Below are positions 53,335-56,658 of a stretch of 64,000 nucleotides of DNA, piece by piece. The stretch comes from Thermococcus sp. M39 (GTDB taxonomy: Archaea; Methanobacteriota_B; Thermococci; Thermococcales; Thermococcaceae). Both the position numbers and the translations under genes were made by a program. Location: positions 62,001 through 126,000 of the forward strand of contig NZ_SNUG01000001.1 in assembly GCF_012027325.1 (NCBI RefSeq), in the 5' to 3' direction. How positions within the stretch are numbered: the stretch's first letter is position 1; each line of letters begins with the position of its first letter. Under the pieces are notes generated by a model, which was not told the DNA's origin, did no database searches, and saw only the letters and a program-made list of their open reading frames with translations.

Positions 53335-53351
53335 GTTCAGAGGTGATTACG

Positions 53352-55298
53352 GTGATAAAGAGGGAAAGTTCTGTAGATGAAATCCTAAGGGAAATGAGAG
53401 AAATCATAAATCAGATGGTTCCTAAGGAAGCGAAGATAACGGATATAGAGTTTGAAGGACCCGAGCTTGTGATTTATGTTAAAAATCCTGAAGCAATAAT
53501 GCAGGATGGAGATTTGATCAAAAACCTTGCTAAGGTTCTTAAAAAGAGAATTAGTGTGAGACCTGACCCTGATGTTCTCCTCCCGCCCGAGAGAGCTGAA
53601 GAATTGATCAAGGAGATTGTTCCAGCTGAAGCTGAAATCACGAACATAAGCTTTGACCCCTCTGTTGGTGAGGTTATTATCGAAGCTAAAAAACCGGGAT
53701 TAGTGATTGGAAAGAACGGTGAGACGTTAAGGAAAATAACCCAAAAAGTTCACTGGGCGCCAAGAGTTGTTAGAACTCCGCCATTGCAGTCTCAGACAAT
53801 CTATTCAATTAGGCAAATACTCCAAACAGAGAGCAAAGATAGAAGAAAGTTTCTCAGAAATGTCGGAAGAAACATCTACAGAAAACCAGAGCTTAAGAGT
53901 GAATGGATCAGAATTACTGGTCTCGGGGGATTTAGAGAGGTTGGGAGGAGTGCTTTGCTCTTGCAGACAAATGAAAGCTTCGTATTGGTTGACTTTGGAA
54001 TAAACGTTGCGGCGCTGAATGATCCTAAAAAAGCATTCCCTCACTTTGATGCTCCTGAATTTAGATATGTGTTACGTGAGGGGCTTTTAGATGCTATAAT
54101 CATCACACACGCTCACTTAGACCACAGCGGATTGCTGCCATACCTCTTCCGCTACAACCTATTTGATGGACCAATTTACACAACACCGCCAACGAGAGAT
54201 TTGATGGTTCTGCTTCAGAAGGATTTCATTGAAATACAGCAGAGCAGTGGCATTGGACCTCTCTACAGACCTAAGGACATCAAGGAGGTTGTAAAGCACA
54301 CGATCACACTTGACTATGGAGAAGTCAGAGACATTTCCCCAGACATGAGGCTTACGTTGCACAATGCTGGACACATCTTAGGTTCCGCCATAGTTCACCT
54401 CCATATAGGAAATGGACTTCACAACATAGCTGTCACTGGAGACTTTAAATTCATTCCAACAAGGCTATTTGAGCCTGCTAATGCAAGATTTCCAAGACTT
54501 GAGACATTAGTCATGGAATCAACGTATGGTGGAAGCAACGATTATCAGATGCCAAGAGAAGAGGCAGAGAAAAAGCTCATCGAGGTAATTCACCAAACAA
54601 TAAAGAGGAAAGGAAAAGTGCTCATTCCAGCAATGGCAGTTGGTAGGTCCCAGGAGATTATGATGGTTCTCGAGGAGTATGCCAGAGTTGGTGGAATTGA
54701 AGTACCGATATACCTAGATGGAATGATCTGGGAAGCAACAGCAATCCACACAGCTTATCCAGAATATCTGAGCAAAAGCTTGAGGGATCAAATATTCCAT
54801 GAGGGATACAATCCATTCCTAAACGAAATATTTAAGCCAGTGGCAAATGCAAGGGAGAGGCAAGATATAATTGACAGCGAAGAGCCAGCAATCATAATAG
54901 CCTCATCTGGTATGCTTGTTGGAGGGCCAAGCGTTGAGTACTTCAAACAGCTAGCGCCAGATCCAAGGAACGCTATAATCTTCGTCAGCTATCAAGCAGA
55001 GGGAACACTCGGCAGACAGGTGCAGAGAGGTCTTAGGGAAATTCCAACAATTGGGGAAGGCGGAAGGACAGAAGTGATAAAGGTAAACATGGAAGTCCAC
55101 ACAATTGATGGATTCTCGGGTCATGCTGACAGAAGGGAGCTCATGAGCTATGTTGCAAAGGTTAGGCCAAGACCTGAAAGGGTAATCACAGTCCACGGTG
55201 AACCACAGAAGTGCCTTGACTTAGCATCTAGCATTCACAAGAAATTTGGACTCTCGACAAGGGCACCCAACAATCTGGATGCAATAAGGTTAAAGTGA
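53352..55298 (+). CDS. aCPSF1/FttA beta-CASP ribonuclease (transcription termination factor)
   Basis: About 648 residues from GTG 53352 (GGTGAT upstream; GTG 53343 lies inside that site). Two N-terminal KH-like domains (about 1-140, with G-L-V-I-G-K-N-G-E-T-L) are followed by a metallo-beta-lactamase domain with T-H-A-H-L-D-H-S-G (near residue 251). The beta-CASP insert then includes S-S-G-M-L-V-G-G-P and the final H in S-G-H-A-D-R-R-E-L. This is the universally conserved archaeal factor that cleaves nascent RNA at U-rich sites and terminates transcription. It follows psmB by 17 bases and is probably co-transcribed. Confidence 0.95.
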   Translation: MIKRESSVDEILREMREIINQMVPKEAKITDIEFEGPELVIYVKNPEAIMQDGDLIKNLAKVLKKRISVRPDPDVLLPPERAEELIKEIVPAEAEITNISFDPSVGEVIIEAKKPGLVIGKNGETLRKITQKVHWAPRVVRTPPLQSQTIYSIRQILQTESKDRRKFLRNVGRNIYRKPELKSEWIRITGLGGFREVGRSALLLQTNESFVLVDFGINVAALNDPKKAFPHFDAPEFRYVLREGLLDAIIITHAHLDHSGLLPYLFRYNLFDGPIYTTPPTRDLMVLLQKDFIEIQQSSGIGPLYRPKDIKEVVKHTITLDYGEVRDISPDMRLTLHNAGHILGSAIVHLHIGNGLHNIAVTGDFKFIPTRLFEPANARFPRLETLVMESTYGGSNDYQMPREEAEKKLIEVIHQTIKRKGKVLIPAMAVGRSQEIMMVLEEYARVGGIEVPIYLDGMIWEATAIHTAYPEYLSKSLRDQIFHEGYNPFLNEIFKPVANARERQDIIDSEEPAIIIASSGMLVGGPSVEYFKQLAPDPRNAIIFVSYQAEGTLGRQVQRGLREIPTIGEGGRTEVIKVNMEVHTIDGFSGHADRRELMSYVAKVRPRPERVITVHGEPQKCLDLASSIHKKFGLSTRAPNNLDAIRLK

Positions 55299-55329: not shown

Positions 55330-56658
55330 ATGAAATGTCCAAGATGTGGGAGAGAGTGGATTTCTTTTGTTCCCCCTCAATGCTTATGCGGTGAGCTACT
55401 TGAGATAACCTATGATTATTCCAATGTTGATCCCAGAGAGTGGAAAAAACGTGATAGAGGAGTCTGGCGCTATAAGGAGCTTTTACCAAGGGTTAATGAG
55501 ATTATAACTCTTAAGGAGGGGGGAACTCCTTTAGTAAGAGCTAAAATTGGTGAAAAGCTGAATCTCAATGTCTATATAAAAGATGAGACCCGAAACCCTA
55601 CCGGCTCTTTTAGAGATAGGTTTGTAACTGTTGGAGTTTCTTATGGTCTTCCTTATGCTGATAATGGTTTTATAGTTGCAAGTGACGGAAATGCGGCCGC
55701 TTCTTTGGCTGCTTACGCTGCAAGAGCCAACAAGGAGGCTTTTGTTGTAGTGCCGAGAAGGGTTGATAAAGGGAAGCTCATCCAGATGATAGCTTTTGGT
55801 GCAAAGATAATCCGCTATGGAGACAGTGTTGATGAGTGCGTAGATTACGCTAAAGAGCTTGCAAAGCTCAATGGTTTGTATGATATAACTCCAGAAAACA
55901 ACATAATTGGATTAGAGGGGCAAAAAACTGTAGCTTTTGAGCTTTGGGAAGAGATAAACCCAACCCATGTTGTTATCCCAACGGGAAGCGGGAGTAACCT
56001 CTACAGCATTTATAAGGGTTTTAAAGAGCTTTTGGAGATTGGAGCAATAGATGAGCTGCCGAGACTAATAGCTGTTCAAACAGATAGGTGTAATCCAATA
56101 GCAAGTGAAATTTTGGGAATAAAACCAAAGAGGGAGTTTACGAAAGCCTTGGGACTTTATGTTAAAGACCCAGTAAATCGAGAGAGAGCAGTTAAAGCTG
56201 TGAAAGAAAGTGGTGGAACAGCTGTTATAGTAGGGGAAGATGAGCTTGACTTAGGGGAGAGGCTGTTAGCCAAGGAGGGAGTATTTGCTGAATATGCATC
56301 TGCTGTCGTAGTTCCAGCTCTCCTTAAGCTTAATGAGGAGGGGTACTTTGAAAAAGATGACAGAATTGTTCTCATTGTCACTGGCTCTGGGCTCAAGGGC
56401 TATTACATAGAAGAGCGTGAGAAGTTCTCCATTGGTGGAACTAAGCTTAAAATTCTCAAATTGCTGAAAGAAAAGCCTATGTACGGCTATGAAATATGGG
56501 AGAACTTAGAAAAGCCAATGAAGTATCAAGCTGTTTACCAGCACATTAGAGAGCTTGAGAGCTTAGGACTCATAGAAGAGGCGTATAAGAAGGGAAGGAA
56601 AATTTACTACAAATTGACTGAGAAAGGACAGCGCTTGCTAGAGAACTTTGAAGAATAG
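55330..56658 (+). CDS. Threonine synthase-like protein lacking the PLP lysine, fused to a winged-helix domain
   Basis: 442 residues. The N-terminus is a zinc-ribbon-like C-P-R-C-G ... C-L-C-G. The fold-type II PLP domain has N-P-T-G-S-F-R-D-R, S-D-G-N-A-A-A-S-L-A-A-Y-A and I-P-T-G-S-G-S-N-L. The Schiff-base lysine of threonine synthase (N-P-T-G-S-F-K-D-R) is Arg95 here. From about residue 372 a PadR-like winged helix follows (I-L-K-L-L-K-E-K-P-M-Y-G-Y-E-I-W, then Q-H-I-R-E-L-E-S-L-G-L-I). I infer that it is not a normal threonine synthase and may be a ligand-sensing regulator. Confidence 0.75.
   Translation: MKCPRCGREWISFVPPQCLCGELLEITYDYSNVDPREWKKRDRGVWRYKELLPRVNEIITLKEGGTPLVRAKIGEKLNLNVYIKDETRNPTGSFRDRFVTVGVSYGLPYADNGFIVASDGNAAASLAAYAARANKEAFVVVPRRVDKGKLIQMIAFGAKIIRYGDSVDECVDYAKELAKLNGLYDITPENNIIGLEGQKTVAFELWEEINPTHVVIPTGSGSNLYSIYKGFKELLEIGAIDELPRLIAVQTDRCNPIASEILGIKPKREFTKALGLYVKDPVNRERAVKAVKESGGTAVIVGEDELDLGERLLAKEGVFAEYASAVVVPALLKLNEEGYFEKDDRIVLIVTGSGLKGYYIEEREKFSIGGTKLKILKLLKEKPMYGYEIWENLEKPMKYQAVYQHIRELESLGLIEEAYKKGRKIYYKLTEKGQRLLENFEE

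Follow-up and report, generated by a model that had tools for sequence, protein, structure and literature searches.

A predicted vitamin B6 repressor in Thermococcales with a threonine-synthase fold and arginine at the Schiff-base lysine position

Bacterial regulators of the PdxR/MocR type combine a GntR winged helix with a fold-type I aminotransferase domain, and PdxR controls pdxST and pdxU (PMC5320631). Archaea are reported to lack MocR proteins (PMC5320631). Regulators were not a subject of a survey of bacterial and archaeal PLP synthesis (PMC9997740), and the main text of a survey of Pyrococcus furiosus transcription factors mentions none of PLP, pyridoxal and threonine (PMC6316755). A literature search returned no B6 regulator of Archaea and, among papers (RegPrecise predictions lay outside the search), no description of the fused family NF004170 as a regulator.

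The stretch of DNA analysed (the window) comprises 64,000 nucleotides of Thermococcus sp. M39 (contig NZ_SNUG01000001.1, positions 62,001 to 126,000) and carries a gene for a protein in which a threonine-synthase-like domain is fused to a winged helix. Based on its conserved residues and on a candidate operator at two B6 genes, this protein is predicted to be a repressor that senses PLP and controls vitamin B6 synthesis and uptake, that is, an archaeal analogue of bacterial PdxR/MocR on another fold (probability roughly 0.78). The gene, its parts and its upstream neighbour are as follows.

53343..55298, + strand: beta-CASP/KH ribonuclease gene (aCPSF1-type), upstream of the regulator gene and separated from it by a gap of 31 bp
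55330..56658, + strand: fused pseudo-threonine-synthase/winged-helix gene, ATG start, 442 aa; proposed vitamin B6 repressor
55330..55401, + strand: N-terminal zinc ribbon (Cys3, Cys6, Cys18, Cys20); each Cys invariant in 44/44 homologues
55504..56385, + strand: PALP domain, residues 59-352, threonine-synthase fold (PLP fold type II); Pfam PF00291, E 3e-68, 231 bits
55612..55614, + strand: Arg95 codon AGA at the Schiff-base lysine position; R in 43/44, M in 1/44, K in 0/44
55690..55692, + strand: Asn121 codon; invariant in 44/44
55984..55992, + strand: G219-S-G221, part of the PLP phosphate-binding loop (TGSGSN); G219 and G221 invariant
56380..56382, + strand: Thr351 (TGSGLK); invariant in 44/44
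56392..56433, + strand: flexible linker, residues 355-368; pLDDT <50 in the AlphaFold2 model
56437..56652, + strand: C-terminal PadR-like winged helix, residues 370-441; Pfam PadR and model secondary structure

The 442-aa protein contains a DNA-binding domain, as revealed by PadR/HTH matches and by the helices and wing of the AlphaFold2 model, in agreement with an earlier note on this DNA that had proposed a C-terminal PadR-like domain from the letters alone. The Pfam PadR match covers residues 375-438 (37.8 bits versus a cut-off of 27), the secondary structure of the model places a putative recognition helix at residues 399-411 and a wing at 415-429, and A401, Q404 and H405 of the winged helix are invariant in the alignment of fused homologues. 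The model (mean pLDDT 88) shows a PLP fold, a disordered linker and the winged helix. Its top Foldseek matches are threonine synthases (E 2e-29), as are the nearest solved structures by sequence; moreover, the protein scores 808 bits against NCBIfam NF004170/PRK05638, ‘threonine synthase’ (curated cut-off 421). The zinc ribbon, which is an addition to the earlier description, has cysteines that are common to the Arg protein and to Lys-bearing paralogues of the same genome in the alignment.

The AGA codon of Arg95 falls within ETRNPTGSFRDR, in the protein motif NPTGSFRDR. The earlier note had stated that arginine stands here in place of the PLP lysine while the surrounding PLP-domain motifs are kept, and both observations were borne out by fused homologues, 44 distinct ones in all, drawn from three lineages of Archaea, namely Thermococcales, a second family in their class and a distant archaeal phylum (that of L017, sampled through 29 genomes). 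Position 95 is Arg in 43 of these homologues and Met in one (L067); Lys orthologues were sought and none was found among the 44. The neighbours N89, P90, T91, S93, F94, D96 and R97 are invariant in the fused homologue alignment. As the orthologues encode Arg by AGA, AGG or CGG and Arg is kept over the three lineages, a sequencing error, a private mutation or a pseudogene was rejected as the origin of Arg95. Furthermore, Lys occupies the Schiff-base position in three paralogues of the window's genome, and the fused proteins form in the tree a single clade apart from the Lys-bearing threonine synthases (support 100/99).

The rest of the cofactor pocket is retained: Asn121, which we take to be the ligand of PLP O3′ as expected in threonine synthases, Gly219/Gly221, and Thr351, presumably the contact of the PLP pyridine nitrogen, are all invariant among the 44 homologues. 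The substrate site has changed. Positions 187/189/194, at which Asn/Ser/Arg are presumed from threonine synthase structures to bind the phosphate of phosphohomoserine, read N/S/R in the Lys paralogues L020 and L021 and T/E/G in most regulators, and Asp85 and Arg88 are specific to the regulator family in the alignment. L021 itself (G000:C2:346839-347732) is a second Lys-bearing ThrC-like paralogue, with the motif NPTWSFKD.

A candidate operator was found as the palindrome TTTCAAGTT-N2-AACTTGAAA, with the core CAAG-N6-CTTG. Exactly two sites with at most one mismatch occur in the 2.28-Mb genome of the window, and they lie in the promoters of pdxS and of the gene for an ECF transporter S component. 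The S-component promoter carries a perfect copy, TTTCAAGTT-TT-AACTTGAAA (C3:55324, 0 mismatches), just 3′ of its TATA box, while the other site (C7:50960, 1 mismatch) is 67 bp upstream of the pdxS match. In a search allowing up to three mismatches the other seven sites each have three, and a reversed control pattern yields 11 sites. Among 40 million words simulated with a first-order Markov model none had 0-1 mismatch, so that fewer than about 0.06 such sites are expected per 2.28-Mb genome. The pdxS operator overlaps the TATA box, often with a second copy about 22 bp further downstream, and the palindrome sites that recur in relatives are at the same two genes.

Across Thermococcales the operator follows the regulator. 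An exact CAAG-N6-CTTG was found upstream of pdxS in 42 of 45 genomes with the regulator (at least two copies in 22 of the 42) versus one of 23 without it (Fisher 1.2e-13), and the median number of mismatches between S-component promoters and the full palindrome is 2 with the regulator versus 8 without (Mann-Whitney 1.1e-5), p-values that overstate independence because the 115 genomes are related; the pdxS count leaves aside three genomes whose pdxS start was not found, and the S-component scan nine promoters that were not parsed. Mismatches to the full palindrome were used for S-component promoters because in genus g4 the left half and the TATA box overlap (TTTAAAGTTNNAACTTGAAA), so that an exact count of the core comes out too low. 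The sole regulator-less genome with a pdxS site, G074, is an assembly only 73% complete, so the regulator gene may just have escaped assembly. For S-component promoter sites the exception is G024, which is likewise incomplete, and weak sites (5-8 mismatches) are found at Pyrococcus-type S-component promoters and in G050 and G062. The regulator may have been lost only once or a few times within one genus; a 240-base pdxS tree gave too little resolution for a count of these losses.

The regulator also tracks the transporter gene itself. One PF07155 S component is present in 52 of 52 near-complete Thermococcales genomes with the regulator, and all 11 near-complete genomes without an S component are also without the regulator (Fisher 2.8e-7, again among related genomes). 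All 11 near-complete genomes that lack pdxS have an S component, and none of the near-complete genomes lacks both, though as an anticorrelation of pdxS and S component these counts (53/11/11/0) are not significant (p 0.35). The best PDB relative of the regulated S component is chain S of 4HZU (HmpT/PdxU2; E 1.9e-21), an S component from which pyridoxamine was extracted and which was shown to carry pyridoxamine (PMC4860826). By homology only, the regulated gene is thus predicted to encode a B6-type ECF transporter component. In several Thermococcus-type genomes (L100:3902-5245) the gene immediately 5′ of the B6-type S-component gene is a class III aminotransferase/racemase-like one, whose product is also a PLP enzyme.

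Beyond Thermococcales, three S-component promoters of the second family of the class (L073, L074 and L080) carry TATACAAG-N6-CTTGTATA directly before the start codon, an element that shares the CAAG-N6-CTTG core, and this family also has the regulator. In these three promoters CAAG-N6-CTTT precedes that element, so that the TATA box seems to lie between two tandem operators. In the distant phylum the two genes are neighbours. The regulator is divergent from the S component in L017, where two EcfA-type ATPases and an EcfT-type protein come next, and also in L067, where the start codons are 56 bp apart; in L065 it lies just downstream of the S-component gene, whose promoter has AACTTGAAT half sites that are suggestive only. 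The divergent promoter of L067, the locus with Met for Arg, holds repeated TTTAAGCTA elements (L067:2925-2981) rather than CAAG-N6-CTTG, which suggests a shifted DNA specificity.

The regulator gene has the same upstream neighbour throughout Thermococcales, the aCPSF1-type gene, at a gap of 1-35 bp. Autoregulation was considered and rejected: the regulator gene, which in Thermococcales sits close behind its neighbour, has no palindrome ahead of it. Given the 31-bp gap in the window, the gene is probably cotranscribed with the aCPSF1-type gene and not autoregulated here. As the short gap holds throughout Thermococcales, expression of the B6 regulator is probably tied to this RNA-processing factor.

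These features suggest how the protein could work. In a threonine-synthase domain, Arg95 would have replaced the catalytic lysine and the phosphohomoserine site would have disappeared while the PLP pocket was kept, so that PLP, or another B6 vitamer, would be held reversibly, with no internal aldimine; loss of the lysine would suit a sensor, because PLP would be tightly retained by a covalent aldimine. With ample B6, the dimer carrying its ligand would bind the palindromic operator via its two C-terminal winged helices. In both promoters the operator lies on the TATA box or immediately behind it, so that the bound protein would block transcription of pdxS (PLP synthase) and of the B6-type S-component gene, amounting to end-product repression; operators in such positions point to repression rather than activation. 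We infer that the protein acts as a dimer, binds this operator and represses, and that its ligand is PLP, serving as co-repressor and not as inducer. The earlier note had likened the protein to MocR regulators and had named an amino acid, phosphohomoserine or free PLP as possible ligands. The reading as a MocR-like transcription factor is supported, and the candidate operator at pdxS and the S component would fit it; among the ligands, free PLP or another B6 vitamer is clearly favoured because the candidate operator is found only at pdxS and the B6-type transporter gene, whereas phosphohomoserine is disfavoured because the residues that would bind its phosphate are lost.

Two other readings relate to threonine. 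That the protein is a functional threonine synthase with an added domain, in which Arg95 is tolerated, accords with its fold and with the NF004170 name, yet it is scarcely credible: the catalytic Lys is absent and the phosphohomoserine phosphate residues are replaced. Nor is such an enzyme missing from the window's genome, which, in answer to the question raised before of whether it has another, normal thrC, possesses a Lys-bearing ThrC whose gene adjoins the homoserine kinase gene thrB. The Arg protein is moreover kept in complete genomes without thrB (G033, G028, G052 and G056), of which G033 has no other ThrC-family match, while thrB is present and the Arg protein absent in G040 and G045. 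A tight link to thr genes is contradicted by this phyletic pattern, and the Arg protein is uncoupled from threonine synthesis; its distribution tracks the B6-type transporter instead. (L021-like paralogues seem to be present in genomes without thrB, namely G052 and G056.) It is also most improbable that phosphohomoserine or threonine is the signal by which the protein controls genes for threonine or other amino acids. The ancestry of the domain and the frequency of amino-acid sensing among MocR-type proteins would fit this, but in the window's genome strong palindrome sites are confined to pdxS and the S component, the recurrent sites of relatives are at these two genes too, and the protein has lost the phosphohomoserine residues and outlasts the threonine pathway.

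Two further readings keep the B6 genes as the regulon. CAAG-N6-CTTG could belong to a different B6 regulator, the fused protein being an unrelated passenger with the same phylogenetic distribution, since within Thermococcales the regulator gene is away from the regulated genes and the tie between operator and regulator is one of co-occurrence. This is very unlikely, as the distant phylum has the regulator adjoining or divergent from the S-component gene, the same core is found again in a second family possessing the regulator, and a PLP-pocket protein with a winged helix is the natural candidate for the role. A less remote alternative, though still an unlikely one, is that the same genes are regulated but not by free PLP as co-repressor: another vitamer (pyridoxal, PMP or PNP) or an external aldimine of PLP with an amino acid might be the ligand, or DNA might be bound by the apo form, with PLP as inducer. 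A preformed adduct could fit because Arg95 cannot form an aldimine, the family-specific Asp85 and Arg88 suggest a remodelled site, and characterised bacterial PdxR proteins bind DNA in the apo form, with PLP as an anti-activator (PMC5320631). Against these variants, operators at the TATA boxes of both synthesis and uptake genes are most simply explained by end-product repression by PLP.

The reading as a PLP-sensing repressor supplies a concrete archaeal B6 regulator with an operator and a regulon of two genes, open to test in Thermococcus kodakarensis or Pyrococcus furiosus, and predicts from homology the substrate of a hitherto unassigned archaeal ECF transporter. It would also illustrate how loss of the covalent lysine can turn a PLP enzyme into a sensor of its cofactor. 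Quite probably, the family represents an archaeal sensor class in which a fold-type II PLP enzyme became a repressor via Lys to Arg, with PLP exchanging freely, as a second independent invention besides PdxR/MocR.

Among known proteins, ThrC (PRK08197, TIGR00260) shares with the regulator the fold, the PLP pocket, the NPTGSF(K/R)DR motif and, in archaeal forms, the zinc ribbon; the regulator differs by lacking the Schiff-base Lys and the phosphohomoserine residues, by the extra winged helix and by its separate clade. NF004170/PRK05638 is the regulator's own family. Its name, ‘threonine synthase’, appears to be wrong, since the fused members examined have Arg (one Met), a winged helix and a predicted B6 regulon; the whole family is thus annotated with an activity that is impossible by the known mechanism. 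PadR-family regulators have the winged-helix motif (PF03551) in common with the protein, where it is merely a C-terminal module on a PLP-fold domain. HmpT/PdxU2 (4HZU) is homologous to the regulated S component, which is archaeal and whose substrate is assigned by that homology. The closest functional likeness is to PdxR/MocR, in the fusion of a PLP-enzyme domain to a winged helix and in the predicted regulon of B6 synthesis and transport. However, PdxR/MocR proteins are of fold type I, with a GntR-like, N-terminal winged helix, whereas the archaeal regulator is of fold type II (threonine synthase, PALP), its winged helix is PadR-like and C-terminal, and it has Arg for the lysine, a zinc ribbon, a plain-palindrome operator and apparently the action of a repressor. 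Because fold, domain order and DNA-binding family all differ, the archaeal regulator is not a member of PdxR/MocR, and the relation is one of functional analogy only.
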